The notes under the pieces were generated by a model. The model was given only the letters and a program-made list of their open reading frames with translations. It was not told the DNA's origin and made no database searches. DNA of 7,805 bases from assembly GCA_030745955.1 (NCBI GenBank), contig JASLNQ010000097.1, positions 1 to 7,805 on the forward strand, in the 5' to 3' direction. This document shows positions 1,831-7,805 of the stretch, one piece after another (the stretch's first letter is position 1; the number at the start of each line of letters is the position of its first letter). The DNA comes from Dehalococcoidia bacterium (lineage in GTDB: Bacteria; Chloroflexota; Dehalococcoidia; UBA1151; UBA1328). The position numbers and the translations under genes are program-made.

Positions 1831-3315
1831 ATGACGGATCGTCCAAACCTCGTCTTCATATTCAGCGATCAGCAGCGCCAGGACACGCTTGCCTGCTATG
1901 GCAACGATTGGATCCACACGCCCGCAATCAACGCGCTGGCAGACCACAGCTTCGTTTTCCAGAACGCGTATGTTACGCAGCCGGTGTGTACGCCGGCACG
2001 CGCCAGCCTGCTGACCGGGCTATATCCCCACTCAGCCGGCCCAACGGTCAACAAGATGACGCTACCGGCCGACAGCAAATCGATAGCTGAAATGCTGCCG
2101 GACGGCTACCGGTGTGCATACTTCGGCAAGTGGCACCTTGGCGACGATACGGTGGCCCAGCATGGGTTCAAAGACTGGATCAGTGTGGAGGACGGCCACC
2201 GGCCTCAACTCTCCAGGCCGGAATACCGGTCCATCCTGTCCGACTATCACCAGCACCTGGTAGAAAACGGCTTTGAGCCGGACTCGGAGTTGATGGATCT
2301 GCCCATGTTCACAGCCGACGCGCGGGCGGAGTTGCCGGAGGAGTTCCAGATGGCCTCCTTCCTGGGCGATCGCGCTGCCGAATTCATCGATGAAGTGGGC
2401 GATCAGCCGTTTGTGCTCTACGTCAGCACGTTCGAGCCGCACTCGCCCTACTACGGACCCCTCAACGACTTGTACGACCCGGCGACACTTCCCACTGGTT
2501 CGGCATTTCTGAAAAAACCGGAGGGCGGGTCACGATATAACCGGGCGCGGGCAGACTTTTTCACGCACGCACTGGAATCCGGGGACGGTAGCGTCGATCC
2601 GTATATCCAGACCCAGATCGCAACGTTCAACGACGTGACTACCGAAGAGGGTTGGCGGACGCTGCGGGCCAGGTACATGGCAAACATCACGCTGGTTGAC
2701 CGGATGGTCGCCAGGATCACACAGGCCCTCGACCGCACCGGCCTGGCCGAGAACACGGTGGTCGTCTTCACAAGCGAACACGGAGAGATGGGTGGCGATC
2801 ACGGCATGCTGGAGAAGCGCTCGCCATACGAGGAGGCATCGCGCGTGCCGCTGCTCATCCGGGCGCCGTGGCTAGCGGAAGGGCAGAGCACAGTCGGAGG
2901 CAGCGTGTCACAGGTCGACCTCGTACCGACCCTGCTAGACCTCCTGGGCCAGCCGACACCCACCCACTTGCAGGGTAAAAGTCTGGTCCCGGCAATGCGC
3001 GGCGAACGTACGTTGGAAGACAACGACGTGATCATCGAATGGAACGGAATCAGCGAGATCGAGGACCGCCACCTGGGGAGCCTGGAGATCAATCTGCGAA
3101 ACACACAGCCCTGGCGGACCGTCGTGCGCGGTCGGTGGAAGCTGAACCTGTGTGCGACGGACCGGTGCGAGCTTTTCGATCTCGAAAACGACCCGCACGA
3201 GCTGCATAATTTGTTTGACGACATCGCGCAAAGGGAACGCGTTCACGATCTGGCAACGCGATTGCACGACTGGCAGGCCCGCACGGGCGATATCGCCCCT
3301 CTGCCTCGACCCTGA
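1831..3315 (+). CDS. Type I (formylglycine-dependent) sulfatase
   Basis: Hydrolyses sulfate esters; the substrate cannot be told from sequence. The 494-residue protein starts at ATG 1831, with GGAG at 1822-1825; an upstream in-frame ATG at 1795 would only add twelve non-homologous residues. Motifs in order are the metal-binding start FIFSDQQRQD (about residues 10-18) and the signature C53-T-P-A-R57 followed by LTG, where Cys53 would become formylglycine. Then come GKWHLGD with K100 and H102, and TSEHGEMGGDHG around 316-325. Most relatives have Asp-His in that last motif; here Glu316-His317 is seen, a conservative oddity. The C-terminal part (WNGISE, WRTVVRGRWKLNL, CELFDLENDPHELHNL) is typical of the family. 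No signal peptide or membrane segment is present, which suggests a cytoplasmic enzyme acting on imported sulfate esters. A formylglycine-generating enzyme would be needed and is not in the window. Confidence 0.95.
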   Translation: MTDRPNLVFIFSDQQRQDTLACYGNDWIHTPAINALADHSFVFQNAYVTQPVCTPARASLLTGLYPHSAGPTVNKMTLPADSKSIAEMLPDGYRCAYFGKWHLGDDTVAQHGFKDWISVEDGHRPQLSRPEYRSILSDYHQHLVENGFEPDSELMDLPMFTADARAELPEEFQMASFLGDRAAEFIDEVGDQPFVLYVSTFEPHSPYYGPLNDLYDPATLPTGSAFLKKPEGGSRYNRARADFFTHALESGDGSVDPYIQTQIATFNDVTTEEGWRTLRARYMANITLVDRMVARITQALDRTGLAENTVVVFTSEHGEMGGDHGMLEKRSPYEEASRVPLLIRAPWLAEGQSTVGGSVSQVDLVPTLLDLLGQPTPTHLQGKSLVPAMRGERTLEDNDVIIEWNGISEIEDRHLGSLEINLRNTQPWRTVVRGRWKLNLCATDRCELFDLENDPHELHNLFDDIAQRERVHDLATRLHDWQARTGDIAPLPRP

Positions 3316-3781: not shown

Positions 3782-5131
3782 ATGGCCGCCCCTATCAGGG
3801 TCGTTCACTACATCAACCAGTTTTTCGGTGGAATCGGGGGTGAAGAGCACGCGAACATCCCCCCGGAAGTACGGCCAGGACCCGTAGGCCCCGGAATCGC
3901 TCTCGATATGACCCTCGGGCAGGGTGGGTCCGTGGTTGCGACGATCATCGCAGGCGATAACTACGTAGTCGAAGAGGTCGGCGCTATCGAAAGCGCACTT
4001 GGCGGGGTCATCGCCGAATTCAACCCCGATGTGATCGTTGCCGGTCCCGCATTCGAGGCCGGCAGGTATGGTCTGGCCGCGGCAGAGCTGTGCAGGGCGG
4101 CTCAGCTTCGCGGCGTGCCAGCGGTGACCGCTATGTATCCGGACAACCCAGGGGTGCTTACCCACGGCAAGGAAATTCTCTGCATTCCGACGGGCACGAG
4201 CACGACCGATATGCCCGAGGTTCTGAAAAAGGTCTCTGCCCTTGCGGTCAAGCTGGGACAGGGAGAAGCAATTGGTGCAGCCGCCGACGAAGGCTACCTG
4301 CCAAGGGGACTGCGCAAGTTCGTGATGCGCGACAAGTCGGGAGCAGAACGGGCGGCGGACCTTTTGAAGGCCAGGCTCGCCGGCGAGGAAGCGCCGTCCG
4401 AGGTTTATCTCAGCAAATATGAGGTCATTTCCGCACCCGCTGCTCTCGAATCACTCGCCGATAAAACCCTGGCGCTGGTCACCACCGGGGCGGTTGTCCC
4501 AAGGGGAAATCCGGACAATATGCCGCCTCTGTTCGCAACCAGCTACTACAAATATTCTATTGATGGCCTGGATGAACTGGGGCAGGGCGACTGGGAATCG
4601 GTCCACGCCGGATTCAACACCGACCACATCAACACCCACGACCCTAACTACGCACTGCCGCTGAACGCTGCAAGGAGCCTGGAGGCAGACGGGACTATCA
4701 AGAACATCCATCCCGAGATGTTCTCGCTGGCAGGGGTTGCCACGGCGGTAACGGAGGCAAAGAAGTTTGGGGCCGAGATGGCCCGGGAGATCAACGCCAA
4801 CGATATCGATGCAGTCCTCCTCGTCGCTACCTGAGGCAGTTGCAACCGTTGCGGCGCAACGGTAGCTAAAGAACTCGAACGGGTCGGCATACCCACGGCC
4901 GTGCTAACGGCGATCCCAAACATTCCCATAGCCGTCGGTGCGAATCGGGTTGTCAAAGGGATCCGGGTTGAGCACGTTTGCGGAGATCCCCTGTTGTCAG
5001 GGGCCGACGACCGCAAACTCCAACGGCATATAGTCGAGGCTGCCCTTGACGCTCTTCGCACGCCCGTTGATGGGCCAACGCTGTTCGAACCCAACAGGGT
5101 GGCGACTGGAAAAGAGACAGCGAATGCTTGA
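3782..5131 (+). CDS. grdB: GrdB-family selenoprotein (glycine/sarcosine/betaine reductase component B)
   Basis: In the known reductases, GrdB is the substrate-binding selenoprotein that cleaves the C-N bond of glycine, sarcosine or betaine and passes the product on to GrdA. Here the frame runs 449 residues if UGA at 4832-4834 is read as selenocysteine (Sec351), close to the usual length of about 440. The N-terminus RVVHYINQFFGGIGGEEHANIPPE and the motifs GPAFEAGRYG, MYPDNPGVLT, EEGYLPRG-type and TTGAVVPRGNPDNMP follow the family closely. The Sec lies in T-U-G-S-C-N-R-C-G, giving U351, C354 and C357, the family's U-x-x-C-x-x-C redox site. The downstream VGANRVVKGI-HVCGDP segment is also family-typical, so the UGA is not a true end. 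The stop overlaps the next start by 8 bases, which suggests translational coupling. Substrate is unknown; the family symbol is used without claiming glycine as substrate. Confidence 0.93.
4832..4834 (+). other. In-frame UGA read as selenocysteine (Sec351)
   Basis: The codon falls exactly where GrdB proteins carry their essential selenocysteine. The frame after it encodes 98 more residues of conserved GrdB sequence, including two cysteines spaced U-x-x-C-x-x-C. A hairpin of bacterial SECIS type begins within 11 bases downstream. Confidence 0.92.
4842..4866 (+). promoter_or_regulatory. Bacterial SECIS hairpin after the selenocysteine codon
   Basis: ACCGTTGC (4845-4852) pairs perfectly with GCAACGGT (4856-4863) around a GGC loop. 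The stem extends by GC/GC across one A-A mismatch. The loop starts with G, 18 bases after the UGA, which fits the usual bacterial rule of a short apical loop with an early G, placed roughly 16-37 bases from the UGA. SelB would bind it to deliver Sec-tRNA. The same bases encode NRCGAT of the redox motif. Confidence 0.8.
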
Positions 5132-6404
5132 ACTGGGCGCCTTCCCCGTAGACCGCATCGAGTTCGGACCGGCAACGAAATGGACCGATAACACCCTTTA
5201 CGTAAACCCCGAAGAAATCGAGAACGTAGTTAAACAGGACGATCGGATCGACTGGGTTGGTATCGACGCCGTGAATCCCGGAGACAGCACCCGGATCATC
5301 AACCGGTACGACGAGGTTGAACCACGCGTTAAGGTCGACGGGCAGGGGCAGGCTTATCCCGCGATTGTTGGCCGTGATCCGGTCGCAATTGGTGTTGGCA
5401 AGACCCACCGGCTGGCCAACATGTCGGTGGTTGGCTGCGTCGACGCCACGGCCGGTGAGATCGACGATCCAGGTCAACGAGCGAGATCAGCGCACCCGTT
5501 TCACACCAGGGTTAATTTTATCGACAAGTCCGGCCCGGGAGCGGTGACGTTTTCCGCCGCAAAAGCCCACGTATGTGTGACGCTCGAGCAGCCGCCGGAC
5601 ACAAGTACCGAGTACTGGCACACTGTAGCCCAGGGGACGATCATGAGGGTCGCAGACCTCCTTGCGCGGGTGATCGCCAGCGAGGAACCACCCGAAGTTG
5701 AGGTGTTTGACACCACTCCGAAACCCGGCCTGCCGGGTGTTGTATTCATCCCTCACCTCACGACTCCCGAGCTGTACCGGGGACCGTACACAAAGACCGG
5801 AACCACGGTCTACGGAATCACGAGGGCCGCCCCGCCATGGGTTCTCGGGCCAATGGAGTTGCTCGATGGCGCGATCGCGCAAATACGGTCCACGATGTAT
5901 ACAGAAAACCCGACCAACCTTGAGCTGCTGCGCAGGCACGGCAAAGACTGGAATTACCTGGCGTGCCTTGCGTATCCCACGAACTGGGGGATGGAGTCGG
6001 AAAAAGCGGCGGTATCGGCACGCGCCGCTCGCACCGCGAAGATGCTGGGTGCCGCGGGGGCTATCGTCACAACCGATGTCCGGGGACAGCGGATGATCGA
6101 GACAATGCTGACGATCCAGGCTTGCGAGCGGGAGGGTATCAAGGTCGTTTTCCTGACCGAGGAAGAAGACCCGGAGAACGGGACCGCCCCTCCTTTCCTG
6201 ACGTGGGTGAGCGAACTCGAAACCATCGTGAGCACCGGTACGGGCGGATGGGATGGCCCGTTCCCTGCGGTCGAAACGGTGATCGGGGCGCGCGCACCGG
6301 AGGAATCCTGGTACGAAGAGCAGCCTGCGGTGCACGGCCGGTATGCCGTAAGCCACCTGGGCGATCACTATGGCTTCGGGAAGCAGAGTTACGCCGACTA
6401 CTAA
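5124..6404 (+). CDS. grdE: GrdE-family subunit lacking the pyruvoyl-forming cysteine segment
   Basis: GrdE is the partner of GrdB in component B. Known members are made as a proprotein that cleaves itself before a cysteine to give a pyruvoyl group, which forms a Schiff base with the amine substrate. This 426-residue protein matches throughout: MLELGAFPVDRIEFGPATK, TLYVNPEE, VNPGDSTRI, EPRVKV at the N-terminus, then VYGITRAAP, LDGAI (248-251), LLRRHGKDWNY and GAIVTTDVRG. From memory, typical members continue after DGAI with SGNC-V-x-ACDK before the NNP segment. Here DGAI is followed directly by AQIRSTMYTENP, so about eight or nine residues with the cleavage cysteine are absent. Its only cysteines are at 105, 151, 281 and 334. 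The start ATG at 5124 overlaps the previous gene's stop (ATGCTTGA); an upstream in-frame ATG at 5046 lies inside grdB. Tandem stops TAA TAG end it. Confidence 0.9.
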   Translation: MLELGAFPVDRIEFGPATKWTDNTLYVNPEEIENVVKQDDRIDWVGIDAVNPGDSTRIINRYDEVEPRVKVDGQGQAYPAIVGRDPVAIGVGKTHRLANMSVVGCVDATAGEIDDPGQRARSAHPFHTRVNFIDKSGPGAVTFSAAKAHVCVTLEQPPDTSTEYWHTVAQGTIMRVADLLARVIASEEPPEVEVFDTTPKPGLPGVVFIPHLTTPELYRGPYTKTGTTVYGITRAAPPWVLGPMELLDGAIAQIRSTMYTENPTNLELLRRHGKDWNYLACLAYPTNWGMESEKAAVSARAARTAKMLGAAGAIVTTDVRGQRMIETMLTIQACEREGIKVVFLTEEEDPENGTAPPFLTWVSELETIVSTGTGGWDGPFPAVETVIGARAPEESWYEEQPAVHGRYAVSHLGDHYGFGKQSYADY

Positions 6405-6487: not shown

Positions 6488-7024
6488 ATGAAGCAGTACA
6501 TCGTTATGTCGGGCGTGGGGAAAGACCGCGTTGGGATCGTCAACAGGATCGCACACGGAGTCGCGTCCGCCGGTGGGAATATTGAGATGCAGCGAGCAGC
6601 GAAATTGGCCGGGGATTTTGCGGTCATAATGCTGGTTTCTGTCGATGAAGATCAGACAGAGACTGGCACTGTAATCGACAGATTAAATAAACTCAGTACC
6701 CGGGATTTTGCTGTCACTGCCAGGAAAGCGTTTGATTTCGACGATAAGTCGGGAGAAAGCGCGATTCAGGCTGAACTGGCCGCCGAGGGAGCCGATCAGC
6801 CTGGCATCATCGATGCTGTAACGCTATTCCTCGTACAGAAGAACATCAGCTTGACCACGATGGATTACGACGTTGCGAACGCGCCGATGACCGGGACAAC
6901 ACTTCTGCAATTGAAGGCCAGATTGTCCATTCCCAACGATGTTGATGTTTCGGGTATCGAGAATGACCTGGCGGATCTGGAACGGGACTTAGGCATCCGT
7001 ATCACCGTTCGCATATCCACCTGA
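6488..7024 (+). CDS. Double ACT-domain protein, GcvR-like
   Basis: A 178-residue cytosolic protein with two ACT domains. The first is about residues 1-85 (SGVGKDRVGIVNRIAHGVASAGGN, the ligand-binding loop type D-R-x-G-I-V). The second is about 93-178 (EGADQPGIIDAVTLFLVQKNIS). This is the layout of GcvR, which in enterobacteria senses glycine and blocks the activator GcvA; it has no DNA-binding domain of its own. A good site GGGAGGA (6477-6483) precedes the ATG by 4 bases, and frame extensions further upstream overlap grdE and have no such site. It follows grdE by 83 bases without a clear terminator and probably shares its transcript. By inference it senses glycine or the reductase substrate and modulates a regulator or the enzyme. 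Confidence 0.88.
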   Translation: MKQYIVMSGVGKDRVGIVNRIAHGVASAGGNIEMQRAAKLAGDFAVIMLVSVDEDQTETGTVIDRLNKLSTRDFAVTARKAFDFDDKSGESAIQAELAAEGADQPGIIDAVTLFLVQKNISLTTMDYDVANAPMTGTTLLQLKARLSIPNDVDVSGIENDLADLERDLGIRITVRIST

Positions 7025-7482: not shown

Positions 7483-7805
7483 ATGCACAGCGGCCGGAAA
7501 GGTTCCCAATTGAAGATCACCAAAATCGAAACACTGGTTCTGGAAGAACTCGGTACGTTCGCCTGGGTTCAGGTACACACAGACACCGGCCTGGTCGGTC
7601 TCGGCGAGACAACTTTCCATCCGCACTCAGTGGCCGCTTTCGTGAAGGAGGTACTCGCCCCGGAGTTACTCGGTGAAAACCCTCTGGATATCGAGCGGCA
7701 CTGGCAAACGATGTACACGATGTCGCGTATGACCAGCAATCGAGGCGTCAATATGTGTGCGCTCTCCGCGGTTGACATGGCGCTCTGGGACATTTTCGGG
7801 CAGGC
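7483..7805 (+). CDS. Enolase-superfamily dehydratase/racemase, N-terminal part (runs off edge)
   Basis: About 107 residues of a mandelate racemase/muconate lactonizing enzyme-type protein. These enzymes abstract the alpha proton of a carboxylate, commonly dehydrating sugar acids. The visible part is the capping domain: KITKIETLVLEEL, WVQVHTDTGLVGLGETTFHPH, LGENPLDIERHWQTMY, then NMCALSAVDMALWDIFGQ, the usual entry to the barrel. It most resembles galactonate dehydratase-like members, but the catalytic barrel is outside the window, so substrate cannot be given. I chose ATG 7483 (GGAG at 7471-7474, 8 bases away). An in-frame TTG at 7510 with GGAAAGG at 7496-7502 would remove nine residues and start right at the family's usual KITKIETL, so it is a serious alternative. 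Confidence 0.9.
   Translation, partial: MHSGRKGSQLKITKIETLVLEELGTFAWVQVHTDTGLVGLGETTFHPHSVAAFVKEVLAPELLGENPLDIERHWQTMYTMSRMTSNRGVNMCALSAVDMALWDIFGQ

Follow-up and report, generated by a model that had tools for sequence, protein, structure and literature searches.

The window, by which is meant the whole 7,805-nucleotide stretch of DNA that was analysed, contains a gene for a GrdB-type selenoprotein of 449 amino acids at 3782..5131 on the forward strand (PF07355, E 4e-107; TIGR01918), with an in-frame TGA for selenocysteine at residue 351. It is followed on the same strand by a gene for a GrdE-type subunit of 426 amino acids, P0002, at 5124..6404 (PF09338). The ATG of this second gene, at 5124, lies within the end of the GrdB gene, which extends to 5131.

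Upstream of the pair, an IS481-like transposase (2-895, with rve and rve_3 domains) has an in-frame stop within its C-terminal stretch and is therefore probably a remnant. Consecutive tRNA-Gln, tRNA-Leu, and tRNA-Lys genes are present at 1264-1507, and a sulfatase (1831-3315, PF00884) carries a CTPAR motif, which we take to be the usual formylglycine site. Downstream, 83 bases after the GrdE-type gene, the gene at 6488-7024 has ACT-domain matches in two stretches and its protein weakly resembles the glycine-cleavage repressor (47 bits against a cutoff of 267). This protein is possibly a regulator of the GrdB/GrdE pair. At loci L001 and L002 the genes directly downstream of the pair are different from this ACT-domain gene. 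The window ends within a gene of the mandelate racemase/muconate lactonizing enzyme family, truncating it to its 5' part (7483-7805).

The GrdE-type subunit and its shortened loop

P0002 is a full-length PF09338 protein, matching the family over residues 2-390 with 190.1 bits (E 6.4e-56, gathering cutoff 22.2), which bears out the strong family resemblance on both sides of a gap that had been claimed in an earlier note on this DNA. Its only cysteines are at residues 105, 151, 281, and 334, so that none is found at 152-280, just as that note had read. The gap is in the loop between DGAIAQ (5865-5882) and RRHGKD (5931-5948), together spanning 5865..5948 on the forward strand. Here, the aligned segment has 25 residues in P0002, 9 fewer than the 34 in Acetoanaerobium noterae GrdE, a reference labelled by its motif since its record is unannotated at that point, and the Asn-Cys present at 241-242 of that protein is gone. 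The motif is SGNCVSACDK in the A. noterae and Photobacterium proteins labelled GrdE here and SGNCVAPCDK in P. acidaminophilum GrdG. Passages of PMC9908766 place the start of the C. difficile GrdE pyruvoyl peptide at position 242. The segment with the Asn-Cys242 at which GrdE and GrdG proproteins cleave themselves is thus absent from P0002, which scores 147.7 bits against the NCBIfam GrdG cutoff of 780. To PrdA of D-proline reductase there is a weak similarity in the second half of the protein (TIGR04480, 31.7 bits), far from the cutoff of 700, and the pyruvoyl cysteine is again lacking in P0002.

Predicted models of P0002 and of the cysteine-bearing homolog P0347 are both confident (pLDDT 92.2 and 93.1, respectively), and around the loop they agree in secondary structure, compared in string order rather than by superposition. 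On the strength of these models, the change in P0002 looks like a cut loop within an intact fold. With no cleavable cysteine, the subunit probably exists as one intact chain, which is in keeping with the earlier suggestion that it may be uncleaved.

Occurrence of the cysteine in the family

The Asn-Cys is missing at the canonical site in the best 120 of 464 homolog hits, which are 40-88% identical to P0002; the closest among the hits listed is P0003, at 88%. Within the segment, some cysteine is found in 47 of the 121 sequences listed, at scattered positions, and a single sequence, P0095, has an Asn-Cys dipeptide, at a later position. Three protein searches were made, taking the best 120 hits of each, and all started from queries without the cysteine, so family-wide frequencies are biased. 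In this biased sample SGNCVSAC is present in 17 of 392 sequences, with one more having Asn-Cys elsewhere in the segment.

A tree of 95 GrdE rows, built without the loop columns, places the window protein in a clade of 38 rows (SH-aLRT 100), 35 of them with shortened loops. The deletion that the earlier note had described in one protein is therefore shared by a clade. The rows with the canonical Asn-Cys form one clade of five (SH-aLRT 97). The trees are from quick searches, with support given by SH-aLRT only.

The statement in the earlier note that all characterised GrdE-type proteins cleave themselves does not hold, as the betaine-reductase subunit GrdI and the fluoroacetate subunit FarE are also without the cysteine. 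In passages of PMC10838667, FarE is described as having neither of the two cysteines and as not being a proprotein, in which it is like GrdI. The name GrdI is given here to the Enterococcus gilvus subunit adjoining grdH (L085), where SGSFMPC (SGSFMPCSSK) replaces SGNCVSAC. The same replacement is found at a second locus of A. noterae (L087). As a control, the E. gilvus GrdH scores 798.2 against the betaine cutoff of 775. The missing cysteine by itself is an already known sort of variation, and pyruvoyl formation is clearly no general property of PF09338 proteins. This reverses the textbook picture of the family: in the present, biased sample the canonical pyruvoyl cysteine is limited to a single small clade, the majority of members being without it. 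The old question of what the GrdE pyruvoyl group is for is also touched, because the scaffold persists without it.

The GrdB partner and its substrate

The window GrdB scores 399.2 bits to TIGR01918 (cutoff 65.45). Its TGA, at 4832..4834 on the forward strand, lies in the context VAT-U-GSCNRC, with UxxCxxC retained, and directly behind it at 4835..4872 on the same strand is a bacterial SECIS hairpin whose match to Rfam SECIS_4 (31.8 bits, E 3.4e-4) does not reach the gathering score of 38. The window gene thus has the in-frame UGA, SECIS, and UxxC of the GrdB family, its SECIS_4 match being below that gathering score. Pairing in the 7-bp stem is 97.0% across 38 sequences, made up of the window, its relatives, and references. 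The stem has 11 double-sided changes and a covariation of 0.168 compared to 0.067 when shuffled, a value reached in 0 of 500 shuffles. Pairing is retained in four sequences in which the protein CxxC codon is altered (L051, L052, L058, and L067). TGA is found at the selenocysteine position in all 40 of the GrdB frames read, including the window and six references. Together with the stem covariation, this makes selenocysteine in the window GrdB well supported. The GrdB frame at L005 1197-2543 has an internal TAG besides the selenocysteine TGA, through a broken gene, a sequencing error, or some other cause.

For glycine and sarcosine reductases, passages of PMC9751293 give the GrdB/GrdF motifs HGGxD and HGGYD. 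The corresponding motif in the window GrdB is H-A-G-F-N (4604..4618, forward strand), with Asn279 at the place of the conserved Asp. The Asp is retained in the references, these being Photobacterium GrdB, which passes the glycine cutoff (609.5, cutoff 602.2), P. acidaminophilum GrdF, identified from its record annotation, and E. gilvus GrdH. Of the first 40 GrdB-GrdE pairs, 12 have the Asp and 28 do not. With 17 pairs added, all 22 pairs outside the window's branch have it and none of the 35 inside it does. Its absence maps to a single branch of the GrdE tree (SH-aLRT 96), the window included, and so represents one event without independent replicates. Loci that duplicated pairs already included were omitted; in L003 and L055 one GrdE row stands for two neighbouring GrdB each. 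L093, L097, L111, and L117 were left out for want of a complete pair, the L111 GrdB having the Asp. L113 was also left out; it is readable, has Gly at the site, and agrees.

Loop length and the Asp agree in 50 of the 57 pairs. The exceptions are five pairs with the Asp and loops of 31-32 residues (L106-L110) and two without it that have loops of 33-34 (L069 and L100). Read from the sequences, these exceptions suggest that the Asp may have been lost before the loop was shortened. L100 (GrdE 102-1418, GrdB 1428-2738) is a pair on a long branch that joins the Asp-less branch at its base, and it is outside the 95-row tree. In its GrdE an Asn-Cys dipeptide precedes the canonical cleavage position by one residue, and in its GrdB the Asp site is occupied by His. 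Because of this dipeptide, the Asp-less branch may include some members that can be cleaved.

A separate type of GrdE/GrdB pair is found in other genomes of the order (L052, L058, and L101-L111), with an EWLDGAVV-like GrdE and UGTSTRS, in one case UGTSTRC, in GrdB. There is no Asn-Cys in the GrdE loops read of this type and the GrdB Asp is retained. In L052 and L058 the members of the pair are approximately 2 kb apart and the SECIS stem is maintained by compensating changes.

Loss of the Asp suggests that GrdB of the window's branch would no longer bind an ammonium group, if the role of this residue is as supposed. The proposal in the earlier note that the substrate may differ from glycine, sarcosine, or betaine stands in part. 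The absence of the cysteine does not alone exclude betaine, as GrdI is also without Cys242, and it is the loss of the Asp in the partner GrdB that argues for another substrate. Genes for Opp/Dpp-type importers adjoin the pair in L002 (by Pfam) and in L003 and L006 (by local clustering), a hint at larger substrates. There are amidohydrolase genes near the pairs of the two closest relatives.

A betaine-type or N-methylglycine reductase B would also have an unprocessed, GrdI-like subunit, a quaternary ammonium being a good leaving group for which no Schiff base is needed. This is an unlikely reading of the window pair. Its GrdB, although sharing HAG rather than HGG with GrdH, reaches 356.5 bits where the GrdH cutoff is 775 and has Asn where GrdH has the conserved Asp. 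GrdI, although likewise without a cleavable cysteine at 242, has a full-length loop (SGSFMPC) and in the tree adjoins the Asn-Cys clade, distant and apart from that of the window. Among the six genes scanned in this short window there is no BCCT transporter.

That the pair is of the FarBE kind, reducing fluoroacetate or haloacetates, is improbable. In the passages of PMC10838667 that system has both a subunit without the processing cysteines and a substrate lacking an ammonium group, the likeness being to this description of FarE rather than from compared sequences. P0002, however, scores 60.7 bits against the FarE model cutoff of 675, and the best of 86 aligned members reaches E 8.3e-69 to that model. 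According to the same passages FarB is without CxxC, whereas the window GrdB retains UxxCxxC. P0002 is thus a member of PF09338 that falls short of the GrdE/GrdG and FarE models, and its partner GrdB falls short of the GrdH model.

Self-cleavage at Ser256 of the shortened loop, to give a pyruvoyl group derived from serine, is very improbable. Ser is used by other pyruvoyl enzymes, according to PMC3689656, and Ser256 sits at a Ser/Thr position of the loop. However, of the 121 sequences listed, 59 have Ser at this position, 61 have Thr, from which no pyruvoyl would form, and 1 has Cys; the four references with Asn-Cys carry Thr or Ser there besides the cysteine.

A frameshift, assembly error, or decaying gene, which only the absence of the motif would favour, has a negligible chance of being the explanation: P0002 is full length and 88% identical to P0003, the partner GrdB has an intact SECIS and reading frame, and the same gap in the best 120 of 464 homologs refutes sequencing error as the cause of the cysteine loss.

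Related Chloroflexota genomes and the proposed reaction

In five Chloroflexota genomes, traced through relatives, there are 8, 8, 2, 7, and 6 PF09338 matches (31 in total) and 10, 8, 1, 7, and 5 GrdB matches, some of these partial. None of the 30 PF09338 loops read in these genomes has Asn-Cys, the thirty-first match being a fragment (L036). A single GrdA with an in-frame TGA is present in four of these five starting genomes and in four of five further Chloroflexota, with CxxU retained in all seven of the eight that could be framed. SelA is above 420 bits in four of the five. Among 250 genomes of the order, 24 have a P0002-like gene, which in some is of another type with an identity of only 27-31%, and 19 have GrdA, single copy each. 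All 19 are within the 24, and GrdA is missing in the other five. This co-occurrence has a Fisher p of 2.9e-24, and of 1.1e-20 when the five starting genomes are left out, relatedness being ignored.

Eight of 10 genomes have a GrdC above the cutoff, in each case beside GrdA, and the Cys in GFCAGPTHA is invariant in the seven GrdC aligned. No GrdD is above its cutoff in the 10 related genomes, whose completeness is unstated; there are two weak matches of 22-23 bits, and this profile also gives matches below the cutoff in 7 of 14 control genomes. In the E. gilvus operon, used as a control, GrdC scores 815 bits and GrdD 552 bits. Acetate kinase (AckA) is found in 2 of 14 genomes, as is Pta, and neither is found in the nine tested genomes of the order of G001. 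Both GrdA and GrdC are present in G001 and G002, the genomes of the two closest relatives. It is from relatives 66-67% identical that we infer GrdA and GrdC in the window's own organism.

The system resembles GrdE/GrdG in its PF09338 family, in length, in the UGA-selenocysteine GrdB partner, and in the GrdA and GrdC of the relatives' genomes. It differs in that the window pair is without Asn-Cys242, 9 loop residues, and the GrdB Asp, and in that GrdD was not found in the relatives. The favoured reading, considered fairly probable, is that 3782-6404 encodes an uncleaved, pyruvoyl-free protein B module of a GrdA-dependent selenium reductase, feeding GrdA and GrdC in SAR202/Dehalococcoidia-like Chloroflexota. 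The substrate would probably be one without an ammonium group and would yield acetyl-CoA. In the proposed reaction, the GrdE-type subunit would remain uncleaved and form no pyruvoyl group. The GrdB selenocysteine would attack the alpha carbon of an alpha-substituted carboxylate X-CH2-COO-, from which X would leave; the loss of the GrdB Asp points to an X that is not ammonium. The carboxymethyl selenide would then be handed to GrdA, and the acetyl group would be passed to GrdC and finally to CoA. This last transfer is proposed because GrdD, and mostly Pta and AckA, were not found in the relatives, for which reason acetyl phosphate is an unlikely product there. Acetyl-CoA would be a natural alternative product for the FabH-like GrdC.

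Glycine reductases have been reported in Dehalococcoidia, with GrdB chosen by the motif HGGxD in passages of PMC9751293, a selection that would omit the window's branch. Gene clusters of Lost City MAGs are written 'GrdEBCA' in passages of PMC9469722, with a glycine reductase in seven MAGs. Clusters without GrdD may therefore have been seen before, which is not stated in those passages. In the literature searched, with subscription journals mostly outside its scope, no description was found of a branch with many pyruvoyl-free modules, one GrdA and GrdC, and no GrdD, and nothing on SAR202 with glycine reductase or a selenoprotein.

More tentatively, the modules could be parts of a 'plug-in' pathway of marine-type Chloroflexota, in which up to eight pyruvoyl-free GrdB/GrdE modules, many cleaving different non-ammonium C-X bonds beside a carboxylate, would all charge a single GrdA and a single GrdC, with acetyl-CoA as the product and no acetyl phosphate formed. 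Such a pathway would be an undescribed branch of selenocysteine-dependent reductive bond cleavage. If the proposed chemistry is right, the selenium enzymes of uncultured Chloroflexota would reduce several alpha-substituted acids to an acetyl unit.

One Chloroflexota genome, G174 (L064-L066 and L070-L074), has eight PF09338 matches, no GrdA match, and a partial GrdC; either the genome is incomplete or the use of these genes is independent of GrdA. At another locus, L050, an open frame (13816-15168) flanked by the GrdA cluster and a further GrdB/GrdE pair has a weak match to the UGSC family of (seleno)proteins (26 bits).
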